From a virus, in IMG/VR virus record IMGVR_UViG_3300046714_000185, positions 1 to 51,430 of that record: DNA of 51,430 bases. The stretch is one strand, 5' to 3'. The translations under genes and the position numbers were made by a program. The notes under the pieces were generated by a model. It had not been told where the DNA came from. It worked only from the letters and a program-made list of their open reading frames with translations, and did not search any database. Each line of letters starts with the position of its first letter. The stretch's first letter is position 1. This document shows, in pieces, positions 32,415 to 48,670 of the stretch.

Positions 32415-32625
32415 AGAACGTGCTTCCAGTATTTTTTGGCCTTTATTTCACTTACAGCCCCACGGCCTATGTCATAGGCACGAGCTATGTTGCTATTTAT
32501 CCAGTTGTATAACTTGAGCCTTTCCATGGCCAACAATCATCCGGCCCGCCTTTCACAACTTTAGCCCAAAATGCTTCCATCCGTTGAGCAGCCGAGTATT
32601 TTCCACCCCCTCTACCTTGAGCCAT
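32411..32625 (-). pseudogene. internally deleted HNH endonuclease remnant
   Basis: Read on the - strand from 32625, the sequence encodes an N-terminal piece with RMEAFWAKVVKGG and DDCWPWKGSSYTTG, the standard beginning of a family of phage HNH endonucleases, then stops at 32497. In another frame up to 32411 comes SNIARAYDIGRGAVSEIKAK then YWKHVL, the standard DNA-binding end of such proteins. The catalytic HNH middle is missing. The start overlaps the SbcC-like stop by 14 bp. This fills the ~200-bp gap between the two strand blocks. Confidence 0.75.
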
Positions 32626-34471
32626 TGTGTATTTCCGATCCTGATTTATTTTTTACGATAGTGATTACCCCGGCAAATCCACCATAATCAAACACGTTAT
32701 GATCTACAATAAATATACGTTTGTTTTCTGTCTCCGCCCTATGGGCTAAGGTTTCAACCAAATCTTGCATTCCTTCGGCTGATAGATGGGTCGTAACCTC
32801 ATCATAAAACTCAATCTGGTTCTCAAGCCCTGCCCGCTCCATGATCAGGTTGGACAAGCCAATGTCAGCAGCGGTGCACAGGCGTTGTGTCTCACCACCG
32901 CACCAGGACTCAAAGCGTACCGGCTCCTTGTGATCAGGGGCGTGCACAAACACGCTGAAACCCTTGGTGACGCCCCCTGACTTGTTCTCACGCTCAACGT
33001 CAAGATTAATGGTCCAGTCGGGCATGCCCAGGCTGGCAAGATTATTGTTGATCTCAATTTCCAGTGCCTTAAGGGTTTGCTCAATGATGAACAAGCGTAT
33101 CTTTTTGAAGCCTGCGATCCAGGGGTGTACTGAAGCGTGCTCTTCCTGAGCTTCCTTCAGCTGCTCAATGAGCCTGACTTCGTCTTTCCTGAACTTGTGC
33201 CAAGCCTTGCGTTTCTCTTCAAGGAACTCAGTGTGTGGATTCTCAGCTACCTTCAATCCAGCGATCTGTTTGCTTGAAATCTCAATTGCTTGGCTCAACA
33301 TTGCTTTGTCACGCTCAGAATTTGAAATAGCTGCTGTTGTCGCAGCACGCTTATCCATCACCTCAAGCTTGGCAGCTTTCATGTGCCCTATTACCCGGAA
33401 TATTTCCTTCTGACGTTGGCGCTTTACATCAATGTTGGCTGATATCTCAAAAGCATTGGTCTGACAAGTGCTGATCAGGGTGTTCCAATGCTTTGTCTCA
33501 GTTTTCAGGTGGGACGGATCAAGCTTCTGACGGCAACGGGGGCACGTGGCCCCGGCCGCAGGCAGTTCAATAAGCTTCTGCCTTGCATTGCTTATGTCGC
33601 TGTTGGCTGCCTGGAGCTCACTATCCAGCCTGCCCAAAGCCGTGTTCAGTTTTGCAAGTTTATCTGCATATTCATCCATTGTCTTGTCATCTTCGGACAA
33701 AGATGCATCGTGATCCTTACAAGTCTGACGGAGCTTTGTGAGTGCAGCGTCAATATGGGAGATCCTGTCCTCAGCGTCACCAATTTCATTACGTTTGCTT
33801 TTGATCTGATCCTTACGGGTTTTTTCAAATGCCTGAGCCTGAGGTTCGATCTTGGTGATGTCCTCAGCAAGGATCTCAATTTGACTTCTACAGACTTCAA
33901 GCTCCTGAGCCAGATCAACTACGCTTTGATAAATCTCATCGGCTAGTTCAGCTGCAAGCTTTGACTTCTCGAGCCAAAGATTGAGTTCAAGGATATCTGA
34001 GAACAGACTCAGTTTGGCTGCTGATGTCAACTTCAGGAAGGACTCACCAAACTGAGGGCGCATGACTGATGACAGGAACCCCTCCGCATTGAGCCTCAGG
34101 GCCTTGGTGACGGCGTCCTGGTCTACCGGCCTGCCCTTCTCACCTTCAGTCAGCGACAAGCTGTTGGGCGACTGTGTGCGGGTTACGGTGATAGGCACAC
34201 CACCAACATTAAGATCAACTGACACGCGGCAGTACTTGCGCCCCCAGGTGACCACATCGCCAGCCTTGAGCCCACGTGAGGTGCGGCCGTAGAGGCACCA
34301 GCAGATTGCATCCAATAGGGTGCTTTTGCCTACCCCATTGGGTCCAAACCGTGGATTATCTTTGTTGATACCGGTTACAAGGTAGAGGCCGGGGGCCTTT
34401 GGGAACGTAAATTCGTGCTGACCTTTGAACCGTTTGAAATCCTGAAGATCAATCTTCTTGATTGTGAACAT
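32612..34471 (-). CDS. SbcC/Rad50-like ATPase (T4 gp46 type)
   Basis: 619 residues. Walker A FGPNGVGKST (~42-51), long coiled coils flanking a zinc-hook CPRC (~310), an ABC signature WCGGETQR, and Walker B-type IEFYDEVTTHLS near the end. SbcC-type proteins pair with an SbcD nuclease (encoded two genes upstream) in processing DNA ends for recombination-dependent replication. The signature has Cys-Gly-Gly rather than the usual Ser-Gly-Gly. Starts behind AGGGTC. It is the last intact gene on the - strand. Confidence 0.9.
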   Translation of the reverse strand: MFTIKKIDLQDFKRFKGQHEFTFPKAPGLYLVTGINKDNPRFGPNGVGKSTLLDAICWCLYGRTSRGLKAGDVVTWGRKYCRVSVDLNVGGVPITVTRTQSPNSLSLTEGEKGRPVDQDAVTKALRLNAEGFLSSVMRPQFGESFLKLTSAAKLSLFSDILELNLWLEKSKLAAELADEIYQSVVDLAQELEVCRSQIEILAEDITKIEPQAQAFEKTRKDQIKSKRNEIGDAEDRISHIDAALTKLRQTCKDHDASLSEDDKTMDEYADKLAKLNTALGRLDSELQAANSDISNARQKLIELPAAGATCPRCRQKLDPSHLKTETKHWNTLISTCQTNAFEISANIDVKRQRQKEIFRVIGHMKAAKLEVMDKRAATTAAISNSERDKAMLSQAIEISSKQIAGLKVAENPHTEFLEEKRKAWHKFRKDEVRLIEQLKEAQEEHASVHPWIAGFKKIRLFIIEQTLKALEIEINNNLASLGMPDWTINLDVERENKSGGVTKGFSVFVHAPDHKEPVRFESWCGGETQRLCTAADIGLSNLIMERAGLENQIEFYDEVTTHLSAEGMQDLVETLAHRAETENKRIFIVDHNVFDYGGFAGVITIVKNKSGSEIHNGSR

Positions 34472-34673
34472 TTTTGACCCTGAATGCGCGTTTGTAGTGT
34501 TCTGAGCACCAACTTTGTTGCCTGAAGTTCCTGACTACAGTTTGTTTCCCACAATACAAACTGCAATCAAGATTTGCAGGCCAGTGGCAGTGATTGCTGG
34601 TCAGCTCCATAATTCCTACTGGTTGGCGCTCAGGCGCTTTTTCGCGTTTCAAAATTCTTCTCTCGTGGCTCAT
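34449..34673 (-). CDS. small Cys/His-rich (zinc-binding-like) protein
   Basis: 74 residues placed between the SbcD- and SbcC-like genes, with ATGA overlap to the former and 23 bp overlap to the latter. The sequence has HCHWPANLDCSLYCGK followed by WCSEHYKR, giving Cys/His positions suited to one zinc site. Similar short proteins accompany phage replication genes, but no family can be named. Real by position and coupling. Confidence 0.6.
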   Translation of the reverse strand: MSHERRILKREKAPERQPVGIMELTSNHCHWPANLDCSLYCGKQTVVRNFRQQSWCSEHYKRAFRVKNVHNQED

Positions 34674-35671
34674 TTTTCGGTCAGGATGATACGTCCGGCC
34701 TCACGCTGTGCTGACGGAATCTTTTCCTGCTTACAGTAAGCATCAAACACTTCCGCCTTCTCCAACAATGTACGTTCGCTGGTTTTGACATCGTTCCGTT
34801 TTGCTGACTGGAGCACTTTCAGGGTTACCCCAAACACTTCAAGCTTGAAGTATCGGCAACGTTCAAGAAGCTTGCGTCTAAATTCTGGCCACTCAACTAC
34901 TTCCTCACGGGTCAGGGCGCAGGTCAGTTTTATCTGATCACCTTCACGAAGTATCTTATCGTTAAATAATGCCTCAACATCATCTGGGTCTTGAACAACG
35001 CGGGCCCACTTGCGAGGAGCTGGAAAATGCAGATCCTGACTACCTGTGTCTGACACAACTAGCACCCGGGGTATGAATCGGTCGCCGAACTTAACATGGT
35101 AGGGGCTGCCCACGTAGGTTATAGGGCCGCTACGCTGCGGCTTGTGCACATCACCCGCCCAGACACCGGCTGCGCCCTTAAACGTGGCCAGTGAGGCGCT
35201 CAGGCCGGACAATTGCACCCCAGATTCAGCTATTGCCCTCTCAAAGGTGTTGTGCAGCATTACCCCTGCACATTTTGCCGGTATTATTTTACATGCCTCA
35301 TCAAACTCAGCCTGAGTGCGGCAATGAGGGATGAAAGCTATCGCATATTCCTTATTGAAGCAGGGCTTAACAATAAATCGCAGCCCATCGATGCTGCTGA
35401 GGAACCTGAAGAAGGGACAATCCGGGTTGTTCCCGTCATGGTTTCCTCTGAGTATAAAAACGGGCGGTCGCAGCCGCTTGAGGGAATCAACAATTTTGTT
35501 GACGAGAATTGAGGAATGCTTATCTTTGTTTTCGGTGATGTCACCAAGGATGAAAGTAGCCTGAACATCCAACTTCTCCTGCTTTTTGGCCAGCCAAGGG
35601 AATAGCCCAAAGCGATATTCATCTTTGGGGCGGTCAGATAGGTGGATATCTGAGGTTATGAGCCAAGTCAT
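34670..35671 (-). CDS. SbcD/Mre11-like metallophosphoesterase (T4 gp47 type)
   Basis: 333 residues from the ATG at 35671. Metallophosphoesterase motifs: TSDIHLSD (motif I), FILGDITENKD (II), LRGNHDGNNPD (III) and GVWAGDVHKPQ near ~165 (motif IV/V region). The SbcD/Mre11 family cuts DNA ends with the SbcC ATPase encoded just downstream. The longer in-frame start at 35698 lies in the preceding gene. Stop overlaps the next start. Confidence 0.88.
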   Translation of the reverse strand: MTWLITSDIHLSDRPKDEYRFGLFPWLAKKQEKLDVQATFILGDITENKDKHSSILVNKIVDSLKRLRPPVFILRGNHDGNNPDCPFFRFLSSIDGLRFIVKPCFNKEYAIAFIPHCRTQAEFDEACKIIPAKCAGVMLHNTFERAIAESGVQLSGLSASLATFKGAAGVWAGDVHKPQRSGPITYVGSPYHVKFGDRFIPRVLVVSDTGSQDLHFPAPRKWARVVQDPDDVEALFNDKILREGDQIKLTCALTREEVVEWPEFRRKLLERCRYFKLEVFGVTLKVLQSAKRNDVKTSERTLLEKAEVFDAYCKQEKIPSAQREAGRIILTEK

Positions 35672-35672
35672 A

Positions 35673-36245
35673 TCATCTAAATTTCCGTGTGCCCCCAAGG
35701 GCTACGTGAGCCGAATCTTTCCATTCTTTGTTCTTTTCCACAAAGCGCGCATACTTAAGGAAGTCCTCAAACAGTAATATGTTCATCCCCAATTGTGGGG
35801 CAGTTAGGACGCAGCGCCCCTGGTAAATTTTCAAGGTCTCAAGGCCAGAATGGCTCAGGCAGGCAATTACCGGGAGCTGGTTCTGCTTGGCAATCAGGAA
35901 TGGGAGCTTCTCATAACGCTTGGCCTCGGCTTTGGCTGTATCCCAAAACGTGGCTAGCTGGCCTGTACCGGTCATCAGCCCATGGAACTTGAGATCTCTG
36001 TAGAACTTGCATTCCACATAAAAGGTCTCAATGAAGGGGGCCCCTACGCGGCTGACAGCTGAGATGTCACCCGCCTGCTGAGCAAGGCTCTTGCCTTTGG
36101 CAGCCGCTACTGTTGAGCGGCCACCCGAAAGTGCGCTTCTCCAAAAGACGTCTTCCTGAGTACCATTGCTGATCCAAAGTGATAACTGAACACACACATT
36201 CCTTTCAAATTGACTACCCTTCTGCTTTCCTCCGCCTTTCCTCAC
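35673..36245 (-). CDS. PD-(D/E)XK-type nuclease (Holliday-junction-resolvase-like)
   Basis: 190 residues from the GTG at 36245, chosen for its GGAGG site 8 nt upstream; a TTG at 36260 is possible. Motifs: KGSQFERNVCVQLSLWI (N-terminal helix, Glu), FWRSALSGGRSTV, AGDISAV (catalytic Asp) and FYVECKFY (ExK): the layout of small phage PD-(D/E)XK nucleases often annotated as Holliday junction resolvases. It sits beside RecA-like and SbcCD-like genes, so a role in branch resolution or packaging is plausible. Substrate is inference. Confidence 0.75.
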   Translation of the reverse strand: MRKGGGKQKGSQFERNVCVQLSLWISNGTQEDVFWRSALSGGRSTVAAAKGKSLAQQAGDISAVSRVGAPFIETFYVECKFYRDLKFHGLMTGTGQLATFWDTAKAEAKRYEKLPFLIAKQNQLPVIACLSHSGLETLKIYQGRCVLTAPQLGMNILLFEDFLKYARFVEKNKEWKDSAHVALGGTRKFR

Positions 36246-36301
36246 AACACATGCCTCCAATGTTTATTGGCACTCAGGAACTGGTTTCCAACCTTCACGT
36301 C

Positions 36302-36511
36302 TCACTTGCAGATCCTCGCCCTGACAGCACAGTCCTTGGCCTCAAGCAGCTTGCGCAGCGCAACGGTGCGCTCCGGATTTGACGGCAGCTCGATGGCGAT
36401 CCAATTAGCCAAACTGGCAAAGTGGAGGCTGATTGATTGAAGGTGCTCCGGAAGGTGCTTGTACTCAAAGAACTGGAGCATGCGCTCGGGTGCTGGTACT
36501 TGATCGCTCAT
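36302..36511 (-). CDS. Acb2/Tad1-domain-like small protein (candidate anti-CBASS/Thoeris sponge)
   Basis: 69 residues, ATGA overlap with the RecA-like gene. The pattern PERMLQFFEYKHLPEHLQ, a middle helix FASLANWIA and the ending NPERTVALRKLLEAKDCAVR corresponds, from memory, to the small two-helix family annotated Acb2/Tad1 domain. Characterised members form hexamers that bind cyclic dinucleotides, cyclic trinucleotides or gcADPR and so neutralise CBASS and Thoeris signalling. Being placed within the replication operon suggests expression with those genes. The family assignment is by sequence memory and needs a profile search. Confidence 0.6.
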   Translation of the reverse strand: MSDQVPAPERMLQFFEYKHLPEHLQSISLHFASLANWIAIELPSNPERTVALRKLLEAKDCAVRARICK

Positions 36512-37497
36512 TTGTACTTTCTCCTGGTTGGCAGGAAAGAGGTTTCAATTTCAGCCCATGCTTGTTTCACCTGAGCATCCAAGGCTATACGCTCAGCTTT
36601 GTATTCCTCATCTGAGGCTTCAGTAATCTCCTTCAGGTAGGCTTTGGCACTCACACCCAGCTTGGATACTTCATCAAGCCACTCAATGGATGCTTTGACA
36701 TCATCAATGCCGTACCCAAATACGAAATCAAATTCACACGTCCGGAACGGAAGCCCAACTTTGTTCTTTTTGACCTGGGCTTTGATCCGCACTCGGTCAG
36801 GGCGCTCAACCTTGTTCACAACACGCTTCTTGGCGCCAAGATTGGCCAGCCACACTACTTGTGAAGCATAGAAGTCCAGGGCCCGGCCACCGCTGCGTTT
36901 GTGCTTCTCACCAAACATCGCGCCAATGTTGTCGCGCACTTGGGAAACTATAAGCAGCAGGGTCTGAGTCTTCTCAATCTTACCTTTCATCTTTCGGAAC
37001 ATGGTGCTGAGTAGCTTGGCCTTTTTGGTGCCGTAGCTGGCTGCGCCTATTTCCTGCTTCATCTCGTCTTCATCAGATAAGGAATCAAGGCTGTCTAGCA
37101 CGTAGATGCTAGGGCCCTTTGCCTTATCAAGGAAATCATCAAAGTCGGCGGCAAATTGTTCCACCGTTCCCATTTGATCGTCTTCATTCCCAAAATCAAT
37201 CTTGTCTATTGGGAGCCCCATGGCAGCGGCATAGCCTTTGTCATAGGCCGCCTCACAGTCCCGGTAGGCATAGCGCCCCTTAGGGTAACGCTCTACAAAG
37301 TTGATCAGTGCTTCGGTGGCCAAGGCAGTTTTGGCGGTGCTTTTGTCACCCACTACGTTGGCAATGCGGCCAATGGCCCAGCCACCACCTAACGCACAAT
37401 CCAATAGCCCACAGCCACTGGGGCAAAACTTTATATCGGTTTTGTCTGATACAAAGTAGCTGCCAATGGGCTTTTCAATCTTTATTCTCTTTCGCAC
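36508..37497 (-). CDS. RecA-like recombinase
   Basis: 329 residues from a GTG with CGGAG upstream. Core features: Walker A GDKSTAKT (~50-57), acidic YAYRDCEAAYD, Walker B-type SIYVLDSLDSLSDE, and LLLIVSQVRDNIGAMFG with SGGRALDFYAS, the L1/L2 and ATP-cap region of RecA/UvsX-type proteins. It catalyses strand exchange. The P-loop has Ala where Gly-Lys is usual. The gene neighbours the SSB-like, nuclease and SbcCD genes. Confidence 0.88.
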   Translation of the reverse strand: MRKRIKIEKPIGSYFVSDKTDIKFCPSGCGLLDCALGGGWAIGRIANVVGDKSTAKTALATEALINFVERYPKGRYAYRDCEAAYDKGYAAAMGLPIDKIDFGNEDDQMGTVEQFAADFDDFLDKAKGPSIYVLDSLDSLSDEDEMKQEIGAASYGTKKAKLLSTMFRKMKGKIEKTQTLLLIVSQVRDNIGAMFGEKHKRSGGRALDFYASQVVWLANLGAKKRVVNKVERPDRVRIKAQVKKNKVGLPFRTCEFDFVFGYGIDDVKASIEWLDEVSKLGVSAKAYLKEITEASDEEYKAERIALDAQVKQAWAEIETSFLPTRRKYK

Positions 37498-37807: not shown

Positions 37808-38091
37808 TGCTTCAACCGTGATTTTAACAAGTGCTGCCAGCCCCTGTACCCCATGCGCCTGATGGTTTCACGCTCACGTTCCCAACGGGCATAGGGTATC
37901 TCGTCTTTCATTATTTCTTTGAGGGGGCGTTTATCCCAGCGGAGCGGGTCTATACCGCTCCGCCGGAGTAGCTCAGTCCTGCGGTCAGTCGTCGTCGGAC
38001 TCAGACGACCTTTTGCGAGACTTGATCTTGTCCCTGAGGCTGCCGCCCTTTTTGGGGGGCGGGGCATCCTCCTCTTCATCATCATCATCAT
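37804..38091 (-). CDS. small basic protein overlapping the SSB-like gene
   Basis: 95 residues as the longest frame; the start is uncertain because its first ~35 codons lie inside the charged tail of the SSB-like gene in another frame. The conserved-looking part is ELLRRSGIDPLRWDKRPLKE to ARWERERETIRRMGYRG, a highly basic helical protein. Stop overlaps the next ATG (ATGA), which supports translation. The start could be any of the ATGs at 38077-38091, a non-ATG codon downstream near 38015, or an ATG at 37917. Confidence 0.5.
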   Translation of the reverse strand: MMMMMKRRMPRPPKRAAASGTRSSLAKGRLSPTTTDRRTELLRRSGIDPLRWDKRPLKEIMKDEIPYARWERERETIRRMGYRGWQHLLKSRLKQ

Positions 38092-39187
38092 CAGGCTCAG
38101 CCCGAGCCTTCACCCGTTTGCGGGGTGCCGGTTCATCATCCTCATCATCATCGTCAGCAGGCCTCTTGGCCTTTTTGCGAGGAGCTGGCTCATCATCCTC
38201 ATCATCATCAACCGGCTTCTTGCGGCGCTTGGGCGTAGGCTCATCGTTCTCATCATCATCAGTATCAGGCTCGTCCTCATCGTCATCACGCGATGGCTTC
38301 TTCTTGGACTTGGCCTTTGGCGGCGGTGCGTCATCCTCATCATCATCAGAGGATTCATCCTCATCCTCATCAAAAGGGGGCTTCTTGCGCTTAGGCTCGT
38401 CGTCCTCATCATCCTCATCATGACGCGCCTTGGTAGAACTCTTCCGGGTCTTCACATCATCCTCCTCATCGTCATCATCCTTTCGGCTCTTCACAGAGCC
38501 ATTGAACACCTGTGAGATATAATCGTAATCATAGAAGTTAAGGCAGTCAGGCAGTGGATTCTCAGTGATGAAGTCCAGCCACTGCTGTTGCTGTTCAGCA
38601 TCCTCACTGATACGACTTGGCTTCTGCAAGCGTATCTTTGAGCCCTCATATTTGGTGTTCAACCCCTTTCCAGTGCGGTAGAAGCGGACGTCACAGCCCC
38701 TGGTAGGGTGGTCAAGCGGCACAATCTCACCGGTATCCTCATCAAATGAGACGTCAGCAAAACCCTTGTCTACTGACACCGGGGCATCCATGATCTGAGG
38801 CCCTTCATCCTCATCCTGCCGGTCAATGACCCACATGAGGATGCGTTGTCGGGGCTTGAGTTGCTTGTCGAGCTCTTCGTCATCATCAGCCTTGGCCTCA
38901 AGGCGTGCCTCAGCAATGGGGTCCTTGCCCTTGCCGTGCTTGGACAACGACAGGAAGCTGTTGTTGTCGGGGCCAATCCCATAGTTGAGCCACACATCAA
39001 ATCCGTAATGATTGGCGCCTTCCCAGGTGGCCGGAAGGATGCGGATGTTGTTCTTACCGTCTTTGATCTTGTAGCGTTTGTACTTTGGCTTGATGAAAGT
39101 GTCGTACCCGCTACCAGCGGCACGTCCTTTGACATCATCAGCAGTACGACTTTGGTAGTGAAACCCACGCTTAGCTGTGCGCGCCAT
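37985..39187 (-). CDS. gp32-like ssDNA-binding protein with long charged tail
   Basis: 400 residues; GAGGAG ribosome site. The N-terminal ~230 residues resemble the phage ssDNA-binding/gp32-like group (NNIRILPATWEGANHYGFDV, then RQRILMWVIDRQDED). From ~235 on the protein alternates acidic and basic blocks, with 5-6 irregular repeats such as DDDEDDEPAPRKKAKR, and ends SSESDDD. SSBs use acidic C-termini to recruit replication partners; this one is far longer (~165 residues) than usual. The repeated GAT-rich DNA is prone to slippage. Position with RecA and clamp genes supports the call. Confidence 0.7.
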   Translation of the reverse strand: MARTAKRGFHYQSRTADDVKGRAAGSGYDTFIKPKYKRYKIKDGKNNIRILPATWEGANHYGFDVWLNYGIGPDNNSFLSLSKHGKGKDPIAEARLEAKADDDEELDKQLKPRQRILMWVIDRQDEDEGPQIMDAPVSVDKGFADVSFDEDTGEIVPLDHPTRGCDVRFYRTGKGLNTKYEGSKIRLQKPSRISEDAEQQQQWLDFITENPLPDCLNFYDYDYISQVFNGSVKSRKDDDDEEDDVKTRKSSTKARHDEDDEDDEPKRKKPPFDEDEDESSDDDEDDAPPPKAKSKKKPSRDDDEDEPDTDDDENDEPTPKRRKKPVDDDEDDEPAPRKKAKRPADDDDEDDEPAPRKRVKARAEPDDDDDEEEDAPPPKKGGSLRDKIKSRKRSSESDDD

Positions 39188-39188
39188 T

Positions 39189-39686
39189 TTAGCTCCTCAT
39201 CCTATCCTGTTTACGTGCCTGGTCCATTTTCATCCGCCTTTGCATATATACGGCGGTGTCTTGACGATCAGTTCCTCGGAACGAGTTTTGCTCGTAGTAA
39301 TTGGCAACATATAATTCACAAAGATGCTTGAGCATGCTTGCCCGTTGCAAAAATGATTCCTTCAACACCCCTAATCTATCCGCTTTGCGTTTTGCAACTG
39401 CGTAGGCCCGATAAGCTATTTTACGTTTGGGGTCGCTTCTTACACGAGCTTTCACCCCGTCATTAGTGATCTTTTCATCACGAAGATCTGCTTTGTCCCG
39501 GATTTCATTATCCAGTTCCGCCTCAATTATGCCGAGATCTTCCTTGAGAGCATCGCGCTGATCCACAGCCTCAATGTAGGCTTCGCCTACATTGCAAAAG
39601 ATCTCTGACTGGTGGACCAGTTCATCATCAAGGGCTGCCTTGTTGATCGCAAGGTAGCCCTTGAGTTCTTTCAGGTTGATTGTCAT
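39189..39686 (-). CDS. hypothetical helical protein between SSB-like and SPFH genes
   Basis: 165 residues, mostly helix/coiled coil (ELDNEIRDKADLRDEKITND) with a basic C-terminus. No family recognised. The start overlaps the SPFH stop (ATGA) and the stop is next to the SSB-like ribosome site. It could be a recombination mediator-type partner of SSB/RecA by position only. Confidence 0.6.
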   Translation of the reverse strand: MTINLKELKGYLAINKAALDDELVHQSEIFCNVGEAYIEAVDQRDALKEDLGIIEAELDNEIRDKADLRDEKITNDGVKARVRSDPKRKIAYRAYAVAKRKADRLGVLKESFLQRASMLKHLCELYVANYYEQNSFRGTDRQDTAVYMQRRMKMDQARKQDRMRS

Positions 39687-40870
39687 TTGGCCTTAGCTGC
39701 GTCTATGATTGCTTGTATCATGCCGGGGGTAATGACCATGGGCAGACCTTTGGTTGCCAAACCAGCCCCAAGCCCTTCCTGCACCTTCAGCTGTGCCAGG
39801 GCCTCAAGAACGGGCATCAACGGCCGCATGGTTTGAGCCATGTATTTGTCGTTGACTGCTTTCTGTACGTCCTCATCAAACTCAAAGGTATCGCCCCAGC
39901 CAATGAAGTCCAGGGTTATTCCTACAGAGCTGAAGAACTCACGGGCCTTTTGCTCAACAGTGGTGATAATCAGGTTTGTTTCGGCGTTTGCCTGATCAAA
40001 CGTTCGGCTGGTGATCTCAGAGCAAACCAGGGTCTGCACCTTCTTGCGGCCAACATCATCCATGACTTCCTGAAGGCTTCGGCCGTAGTAGACCGACGTG
40101 AAGATCACCTCAGGATTGGTGCGGTCGGCTGGCTTGCCTTTGACGTCCAAAGGTGGATTGACTCCAAACCGGTACAGGAACTTGGCAGCGTCACGTTCCA
40201 TGACCGATGTGCCGATTGAAACACCGGCAATGATGTTGAGCCCCTCCTTTGATTGACAAGGGAACCCTTCTTTCTTTTTGGACGTGCCCCGGTCCTCAGC
40301 ATCCACCCATTCACGTGAATAGGGGGTACGGTCAACAATGATCAGGCGTCCGGAAGGTACATAGTAGTCCCACCCAATGTAACCACCTGAATTGTTCAGC
40401 TTGGCGTGTGGGATCAAGAAGCGCTTGATTGCCAGCTTCTTCTCGTTTAGATAACCTTCACTATCAAGTTGAGCCTGTGAAGACTTGTTATCCCCCACAT
40501 CTGGGATCCAAAATGCCGATTCATTCGGCATTATGGTATAGGCTTCAGTGCGCTCAGTCTTCTCGTAGAAGGCTTTGGCGTTGTAGATGGGAAACATCAG
40601 AACTGTCAGGGCTGCCATAGCAGCAACCCACTTCCTGATTGGCCCCCACCAAATGCCAAGCAGTACTAGGCACGTTAGGAACCAAAGTATCATATGCCCC
40701 CACCCAAACATCCTGCTGAGAGCGAGAAAGTTCAGGTAGGACATATCGCTAGGCTCGAATTGACTGCCCGCAGCTTTGCCGACCATCAGCGTTTCAGCTG
40801 TACTGGTGACAAAAGTTAAGACGCCAACAACAAACAAAACCAGGGCAGTCGCTACCCCACGTGTAAACAT
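39683..40870 (-). CDS. SPFH/prohibitin-like membrane protein
   Basis: 395 residues; AAAGGAG ribosome site. Three N-terminal hydrophobic segments (residues ~5-25, 52-75 and 82-97) precede a domain with NIIAGVSIGTSVMERDAAKF, VIFTSVYYGRSLQEVMDDVG, QTLVCSEITSRTF and ITLDFIGWGDTFEFDEDVQK, typical of the stomatin/prohibitin/flotillin (Band 7) family. Members oligomerise on membranes. Here it sits between the clamp loader and SSB-like genes. It may tether the replication machinery or alter the host membrane; role inferred. Confidence 0.75.
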   Translation of the reverse strand: MFTRGVATALVLFVVGVLTFVTSTAETLMVGKAAGSQFEPSDMSYLNFLALSRMFGWGHMILWFLTCLVLLGIWWGPIRKWVAAMAALTVLMFPIYNAKAFYEKTERTEAYTIMPNESAFWIPDVGDNKSSQAQLDSEGYLNEKKLAIKRFLIPHAKLNNSGGYIGWDYYVPSGRLIIVDRTPYSREWVDAEDRGTSKKKEGFPCQSKEGLNIIAGVSIGTSVMERDAAKFLYRFGVNPPLDVKGKPADRTNPEVIFTSVYYGRSLQEVMDDVGRKKVQTLVCSEITSRTFDQANAETNLIITTVEQKAREFFSSVGITLDFIGWGDTFEFDEDVQKAVNDKYMAQTMRPLMPVLEALAQLKVQEGLGAGLATKGLPMVITPGMIQAIIDAAKAK

Positions 40871-47292: not shown

Positions 47293-48084
47293 CTACTCCT
47301 GTGGTTTGCGGAATACAAGGAGAAACTCATGGATGGGCACTAGTTTGAGCCCTTTCCAGCTGTTGGCGCTGCGCTTGGCAGCTGAGCCAAAGTTTTTGCT
47401 CAAGATCACTTCTTGATGAAACACAAATCCAGCTTCACGGAAGTTCTCAACTGTGTGAGACCTGAAATCCACAATCTCACCTTTCTTGTCTCTGAAGTTG
47501 CCGACAACAATGCAAGCAAACGCCCCGGGCTTCAGATGTTTGAAATGAGCGTTGGCGCTGAACTGCATCCCAGCATTGAATTCCCAATAAGTGCCAAGGT
47601 TGCTGAGATCATTGGGCAGATCGCTGTACTGTTCCAGATCGTAATAGGGTGGGCATGTCAAGGCACAGTCAAATTGACTATCTTGTCCATGTCCCTTAAG
47701 ATCGATAAAGCGGCCATCACCAAGTACATAATCAGCACCAACCAAAGAAAGTCTCTTAAGCACTTTCCGGTTCTCATCTATTTGCTCCTGTCTGATCTCA
47801 ACTCCTGTGTACTTATACCCCATGATAGTTGAAACCACCCCTCGAGGAGGGCCGCCTGCAAACGCATCAAGGATTGTGCCTCCTTGAGGTGCATAGCGCA
47901 GAAGTATCCACTCCACCAAAGGGGCAGGGAAAACGGAATGGGTGCCAGTGTAAACGCTGTCATGATCTGGCCTGAAATCCTCTGCCCGTGTTCCTGTGTG
48001 GCCGTCCTCGCCTAGTAAGCGCCGCCAGTCACGCACTGAGCGCCTGATAAGTTCATCCACACGCCACACGGTGGTCGTGGTCAT
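47293..48084 (-). CDS. DNA methyltransferase (N6-adenine or N4-cytosine type)
   Basis: 263 residues from the ATG at 48084 with GGGTAAGG upstream; the longer frame from 48192 adds 36 residues without a good ribosome site. SAM motif I region: ILDAFAGGPPRGVVSTIMG, next strand KYTGVEI; catalytic motif IV: CPPYYDLEQYS. PPY motifs define amino-methyltransferases of adenine-N6 or cytosine-N4. The phage could protect its DNA from host restriction or regulate expression. Upstream lies a homing-type endonuclease, leaving ~98 bp without a recognised gene. Confidence 0.85.
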   Translation of the reverse strand: MTTTTVWRVDELIRRSVRDWRRLLGEDGHTGTRAEDFRPDHDSVYTGTHSVFPAPLVEWILLRYAPQGGTILDAFAGGPPRGVVSTIMGYKYTGVEIRQEQIDENRKVLKRLSLVGADYVLGDGRFIDLKGHGQDSQFDCALTCPPYYDLEQYSDLPNDLSNLGTYWEFNAGMQFSANAHFKHLKPGAFACIVVGNFRDKKGEIVDFRSHTVENFREAGFVFHQEVILSKNFGSAAKRSANSWKGLKLVPIHEFLLVFRKPQE

Positions 48085-48181
48085 GAACCACGCCTTACCC
48101 TTCCCAGGACGGGAATAACTTTGACTTGGGGAAATTAATAGCGGCCTGGAGGTGACAAGGGTTTTCCCATGCGCTTGTCTT

Positions 48182-48670
48182 TTAATGAGCATTTTGTGCT
48201 CGTTTATTAGCGTGATATCGTTTCATTGCTTCTGATTTACGTTTGCAAGCCTCAGGTGATTGCTTTTTGCCTAGTTTTGCCTTGCGTATAGCTTCTCGCG
48301 CTTCGGGTGTGTGGTGCCCTCCGTAGAATGGATTACCCTTACCCTTAAATTCTTTTCTGAACCTTTCAGTTCTGCCTTTGGCCCATGGGTGTGCTTTGAG
48401 TGGACATTTCTTGCCCCTTGTTGCATCACTTGCATTTTGCTCCTGACGAATGCAAATTACATTATCTTTGGAGTAGGGCCCTTTATCACCCTTTCGGCCC
48501 ATTTTAAATTGCCCTTTGTATCTACCCCTGAGTTTAAGCCAGTCGCGGCCTATATTATCTTCCCACCACGTGACCCATTCCTCAAACTTAAAAAGGAAGT
48601 CAATGCCTCGGCGTGAGGCATTGGCTTTCTGCGTGCGGTAGAGCCTATGTGCGCGGCGCTTAACCAGCAT
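48182..48670 (-). CDS. homing-endonuclease-like protein with NUMOD3-like repeats
   Basis: 162 residues. The first ~90 residues parallel the gene at 44646: RRGIDFLFKFEEWVTWWED, GRDWLKLRGRYKG and RKGDKGPYSKDNVICI, an HNH-variant-like core. The C-terminus contains NUMOD3-type DNA-binding repeats (HTPEAREAIRKAKLGK then QSPEACKRKSEAMKR). The start overlaps the upstream gene end by 11 bp. Hairpin GTGCC-GGA-GGCAC at the upstream ribosome site may limit translation. Presumably a mobile element. Confidence 0.7.
   Translation of the reverse strand: MLVKRRAHRLYRTQKANASRRGIDFLFKFEEWVTWWEDNIGRDWLKLRGRYKGQFKMGRKGDKGPYSKDNVICIRQEQNASDATRGKKCPLKAHPWAKGRTERFRKEFKGKGNPFYGGHHTPEAREAIRKAKLGKKQSPEACKRKSEAMKRYHANKRAQNAH

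Follow-up and report, generated by a model that had tools for sequence, protein, structure and literature searches.

The locus at positions 36302 to 36511 (minus strand) raises the question whether a 69-residue protein, encoded in a phage recombination operon, is a counter-defence protein of the Acb2/Tad1 kind. An earlier note had proposed this on the basis of a length of about 70 residues and of a signature, NPERTVALRKLLEAKD, which corresponds to residues 45-60 of the protein. Acb2 and Tad1 are phage sponges, soaking up bacterial immune signal molecules: Acb2 (Vs.4 in T4, p26 in PaP2) is a hexameric cyclic nucleotide sponge, and Tad1 is a Thoeris and CBASS sponge. The window, i.e. the whole stretch of DNA analysed, is an entire virus record of 51,430 bases, and encodes a portal, a major head protein, a DNA polymerase, a processivity factor and a clamp loader. 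The product of the locus is called here the hairpin protein, after its predicted fold.

The open reading frame runs on the minus strand from an ATG at 36511 down to 36302, and its translation is MSDQVPAPERMLQFFEYKHLPEHLQSISLHFASLANWIAIELPSNPERTVALRKLLEAKDCAVRARICK, followed by the stop. The start codon shares four bases with the stop of the preceding recA-like gene (ATGA, 36508..36511, minus strand) and is preceded by AGGAG: the Shine-Dalgarno-like AGGAGAAAG (36517..36525, minus strand) lies inside the end of the recA-like gene, where the sequence upstream of the ATG reads ...CCAGGAGAAAGTACAA. When the gene is compared with six relatives, at 60-69% DNA identity, synonymous sites are near saturation (pS 0.57-1.03) and nonsynonymous change is rare (pN 0.16-0.24): the gene is under strong purifying selection, acting at the protein level. 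The overlap with its AGGAG, the existence of relatives and the pS and pN values thus confirm that the frame is a real gene and not a chance occurrence.

Location in a recombination operon, also claimed by the earlier note, is borne out by the flanking genes, all on the minus strand. A gp32-like ssDNA-binding protein with an acidic tail (37985..39187; phrog_1192) is followed by two small genes, by a RecA-family recombinase directly upstream of the hairpin gene (36508..37497; PF00154, 6e-39) and by the hairpin gene itself; directly downstream are a PDDEXK endonuclease (PDDEXK_15, 35673..36260; PF24608, 9.5e-16), an SbcD/gp47-like calcineurin-type phosphoesterase (Metallophos, 34670..35698; PF00149) and an SbcC/gp46-like AAA_23 ATPase (32612..34471; PF13476). 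Some features of this region were recorded separately. The gp32-like protein has a very long Asp/Glu-rich C-terminal tail with imperfect repeats (DDDEDDEPAPRKR...), apparently exceeding the usual acidic tails; a 74-aa frame with several Cys and His residues (34449-34673, minus strand) separates the SbcD-like from the SbcC-like gene and overlaps each of them slightly; in the replication operon, an SPFH/Band_7 protein with N-terminal hydrophobic segments (39683-40870, minus strand) is encoded immediately next to the clamp loader gene. Further away, a DNA methyltransferase (47296-48192, minus strand; phrog_498) is possibly involved in anti-restriction.

The four bases shared with the recA-like gene and the place in the operon are what might be expected of a RecA-coupled recombination modulator, RecX- or DinI-like in role, and the closest relative (L001, 78% identity) keeps the hairpin gene in the same module. 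There the gene comes after the ssDNA-binding protein and before RecA, with another gene in between; it has therefore moved within the module between the two phages. This is, on the other hand, the only one of the 80 viral relatives examined where RecA is found nearby: the recombination module is absent from the remaining viral loci, unrelated genes adjoin the hairpin gene elsewhere, and the protein has neither a RecX or DinI nor any other Pfam match. A role as RecA partner was rejected from this synteny, and a modulator of RecA appears quite improbable. The same data bear on the proposal that the protein is made while host sensing starts, which depends on placement in the recombination module: the position holds in the window phage and in one close relative, whereas elsewhere the gene is often found beside lysis, terminase or ssDNA-binding genes.

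The hairpin protein belongs to a very large family. Relatives were found by tblastn in 317 phage records (E<=0.01); IMG/VR supplied at least 589 stretches with a relative, and species genomes 209, the record titles of the latter including Alphaproteobacteria, Vibrio, Streptomyces and other Actinomycetota, Planctomycetes, Leptolyngbya, Bacteroidota, Verrucomicrobia and Chloroflexia. The annotated relatives examined carry hypothetical-type names, and a literature search found no description of the family. Its direct counterparts among PHROGs are 1761 (E 5e-26) and 5120 (E 4e-20), both of unknown function; PHROG 1761, unlike the 69-aa protein of the window, also covers a fused N-terminal domain.

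The signature quoted in the earlier note is contained in a family-wide pattern, xLQFFxYxHLPxHLQxVSxPFxxLAxxIVxxLPRNPERTVALRKLLEAKDCAVRA. The most conserved stretch, residues N45-R64 (NPERTVALRKLLEAKDCAVR; codons at 36320..36379, minus strand), covers the turn and the initial portion of the second long helix. Near-invariance is seen in the family alignment at R53, K54, E57, K59, D60 and R64. Because the IMG/VR and genome relatives were fetched by peptide patterns (e.g. LRKLLE[AS]KD, NPERTVAL), conservation of those motifs is inflated, while that of S28, A35, V63 and R64 is less affected. Among six divergent members obtained by tblastn, free of patterns, EAKD is kept in five (phiAS5, Acj133, R3177, AD45, Vincenzo gp72) and EE36 has EAKN. 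In 177 non-redundant members S28 is Ser in 98%, the position of Y17 is aromatic (Y, F or W) in 96%, and F15, H19 and L20 reach 99-100%. The N-terminal half (PERMLQFFEY), which had been taken as unusual for this lineage, is thus conserved throughout the family, in the pattern xQFFxYxHLPxHLQ; in hairpins classified in PF24729, the aligned counterpart of this pattern is their N-terminal F-x-[YF]-H motif. Residues 11-17 (MLQFFEY), which contain the greater part of the short N-terminal helix and the aromatic Y17, have their codons at 36461..36481 (minus strand).

Direct searches do not place the protein in any known sponge family. At E<=1 it has no match in Pfam, including PF24729, the family profile called for by the earlier proposal, PF13876 (Acb4), PF11195 (Tad2), RecX and DinI; Tad2 and Acb4 have different folds. 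PF24729, whose membership is set by a Pfam cut-off of 27 bits, is not reached by any of 66 close relatives: their best E is 0.064, and the best divergent relative reaches 18 bits (E 0.0034), under the cut-off. In NCBIfam there are weak DPS and GLDHase matches, at E 0.027 or worse and far below the cut-offs; a phmmer search of PDB chains yielded no relevant match and no known Acb2. Occludin_ELL matches (E about 0.05-0.1) were taken as chance. PHROG 1454, likewise of unknown function, is matched weakly by the window protein (0.0016) and also by T4 Acb2 (0.0007), and the two matches imply the same register of the last helix, with VALRKLLEAKDCAVRARI over IAKTKLKEASMWACRAVF. When the family was compared by hhalign with Acb2 of the T4/PaP2 type, the result was 0.2%, not significant, and a set of 7 Acb2 sequences gave no signal.

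Profile comparison with PF24729-type hairpins gives a different outcome. The family scores 82% (P 1e-5) against 11 such hairpins, and still 77-84% when members of this small set are left out one at a time; with 105 PF24729-type hairpins the 177 non-redundant family members score 92.7% (P 4.4e-7), the 55 aligned columns taking in the N-terminal F-x-Y motif. A representative subset of these hairpins, 45 in number, passes PF24729 without exception. In the same test the positive control, PF24729 hairpins against Acb2, gives 86.5-90.5%, while reversed profiles give 0.1-0.9% and the best of 200 column shuffles reaches 3.7% with the small set and 16.6% with the deep one. At the level of profiles, homology of the family to PF24729 proteins is therefore statistically significant.

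The hairpin profile was also used to rank the complete set of 39,548 ORFs from the loci, with a similar picture. The top 100 are made up of 97 family members and three PF24729/Acb2-type proteins, T4 Acb2 taking rank 34; no unrelated ORF appears before rank 114 (E 0.24). By this test the link of the family is as good as that of T4 Acb2. The window protein itself comes 110th, at E 0.23, a value which is not convincing by itself, so that its membership is carried by its close relatives.

These results bear on the possibility that the resemblance arose by convergence, the protein being a generic helical hairpin which shares neither ancestry nor function with Acb2/Tad1. Such a reading would account for the missing PF24729 match of the window protein and for the weak direct link to Acb2; against it, reversed and shuffled controls never come near the observed profile score, the hairpin profile places the family above all unrelated ORFs, and the match reaches into the N-terminal motif. 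Convergence is therefore scarcely credible. The kinship proposed from the signature stands at the level of the superfamily, where profiles, ranking and predicted fold agree, and is without support in the direct comparisons with Pfam, PDB and the T4/PaP2-type Acb2 profile: the family is supported as a divergent branch of the Acb2/Tad1 hairpin superfamily in its broader sense, while filing it as Acb2, Tad1 or PF24729 is inappropriate, since the Pfam cut-off and the direct Acb2/Tad1 tests failed.

An AlphaFold2 model of the window protein, built with 66 family sequences, has a pLDDT of 91 and helices at residues 10-15, 22-41 and 46-68; an accepted PF24729 member, modeled in the same way, has helices at 4-9, 20-40 and 45-67. 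The protein is accordingly predicted to consist of a short N-terminal helix and two long antiparallel helices, in a topology like that of PF24729 hairpins. When viral models (BFVD) were searched with Foldseek, direct relatives came first, followed by 12 named Acb2/Tad1 hairpin proteins within ranks 7-40 (7, 8, 12, 13, 15, 16, 18, 19, 23, 26, 27 and 40), which predominate among the matches that carry a name; these matches have E values of 0.045 or worse, with probabilities up to 1.0, and some superpose with a deviation of about 1 A across 43-44 columns. Foldseek against PDB returned no Acb2/Tad1 for the window model, and the accepted PF24729 control also came back empty, so that little can be read from this search.

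The closeness to known proteins can thus be stated feature by feature. PF24729 proteins, such as Paenibacillus phage LunBun gp76 and Mycobacterium phage Rahalelujah gp48, have the length and three-helix layout of the window protein, and have in common with its family the F-x-Y start motif and the LP...E+(S/T)..A..KLxEA core; the window family differs in being sub-threshold in Pfam and in its set of invariant residues. The C-terminal helical hairpin of Tad1 belongs to the same superfamily. Tad1, however, has an N-terminal beta-sheet region (PMC12043709), which is missing from the three helices of the 69-aa protein, though in some relatives other small domains precede the hairpin. With Acb2, the predicted topology, an aromatic residue (Y17) and an arginine (R64) at aligned positions are in common, while other pocket positions are changed.

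The comparison of pocket residues is read from a merged alignment at low identity, as an alignment inference and not a structural measurement. Y17 is aligned with Y8 of T4 Acb2, whose mutation disrupts cyclic dinucleotide binding (PMC12657218), and R64, in a (V/C)RA motif, with T4 R79. S28 (I27-S28 codons at 36428..36433, minus strand) occupies the position of a Lys in Acb2 (N-x-I-K motif) and of an Arg in PF24729 hairpins (VR motif). D60-C61 lies over the Met/Phe-Trp pair of Acb2 and PF24729 proteins, the Trp position being C61, and I67 takes the position of T4 F82, a residue that stacks on the base (PMC12657218). Ser28 in place of a basic residue, Cys61 in place of Trp and the near-invariant charged set suggest that the ligand is probably unlike that of T4 Acb2: an altered ligand preference, as anticipated by the earlier note, is plausible from the aligned residues.

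Immediate neighbours of the hairpin gene, across 160 loci, are mixed: they include endolysins, spanins, terminase small subunits, ssDNA-binding proteins and two Tad2-like proteins, and are mostly lysis, packaging and replication genes. Two Tad2-like proteins and one crAss001_48 are the anti-defence genes found among 149 neighbours, in a scan which is weakly informative; Tad2-like genes are present in 5 of the 160 loci, in all cases within 1.7 kb of the hairpin gene. Vibrio phage 1.205.O encodes the hairpin as a fusion to an N-terminal domain, which in many other phages joins Tad2-like domains (PF11195), and the product of the adjoining gene combines crAss001_48 with a Tad2-like part. Tad2-like domains thus have with the window family a fusion partner and sometimes a neighbourhood in common, which lends modest support to a counter-defence link. 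A domain of about 70 aa, YIGTKxVxAxPMTRxxYNxYRGWxLPxDENGxDEGYLVEYxDGGxxxxxxxxGYISWSPKEQFDNAY (L089:2770-3192, L182-L247), is found fused in turn to Tad2-like, crAss001_48-like and hairpin domains; it has no Pfam match in the one protein examined, and may be a module common to phage sponges. In other loci (L141, L164, L147, L137, L011) different small N-terminal domains, of a beta-rich GxYxxxDG type or zinc-ribbon-like (CxxC..CxC), are fused to the hairpin or lie in an open frame that runs into it.

Taken as a stand-alone, divergent branch of the superfamily, the hairpin protein is judged, with moderate confidence, to act as a sponge for nucleotide signals. By analogy with Acb2 and Tad1, it would assemble during infection into a hexamer-like oligomer, whose pockets between protomers would bind nucleotide-derived immune signals through Y17 and R64; the bound signals would be sequestered rather than degraded, and effectors of CBASS, Thoeris or similar systems would stay off. 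Counted against such a role were the near-invariance across hosts of many phyla, unlike that of a sponge engaged in an arms race, the loss of the aligned basic residue and Trp, and the prevalence of lysis, packaging and replication genes among the neighbours. Together with the changed pocket, the near-invariance leaves room for a different ligand or for a macromolecular target.

If the target is a macromolecule, fold and ancestry would be in common with Acb2/Tad1 but function would differ: the protein would be a small adaptor, whose charged face binds a conserved host or phage protein or nucleic acid, for example as a helper in host takeover or DNA metabolism. The near-invariance of R53, K54, E57, K59, D60, R64 and H19 in phages of many host phyla, the loss of the aligned Lys and Trp of Acb2, and the frequency of lysis, terminase small subunit and ssDNA-binding neighbours all point in this direction. 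Against it stand the retention of the aromatic aligned with T4 Y8, the N-terminal domain in common with Tad2-like proteins, some Tad2 adjacency, and the scattered occurrence as a small accessory gene, which is typical of counter-defence genes. An adaptor is considered somewhat unlikely. If the ligand is a different one, the near-invariant family could be a sponge for a widespread, as yet undescribed, nucleotide-derived immune signal, bound in a pocket (Ser28, H19, R53/E57/K59/D60/R64) unlike that of Acb2/Tad1; this version remains tentative and is regarded as rather doubtful.

Finally, if the hairpin protein is indeed a sponge, hundreds or more of hypothetical phage and prophage genes (PHROG 1761/5120) would become candidate sponges, missed by Pfam-based searches. 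Its sharply different and very conserved set of residues could reveal either a new immune-signal ligand or a use of the hairpin other than as a sponge.
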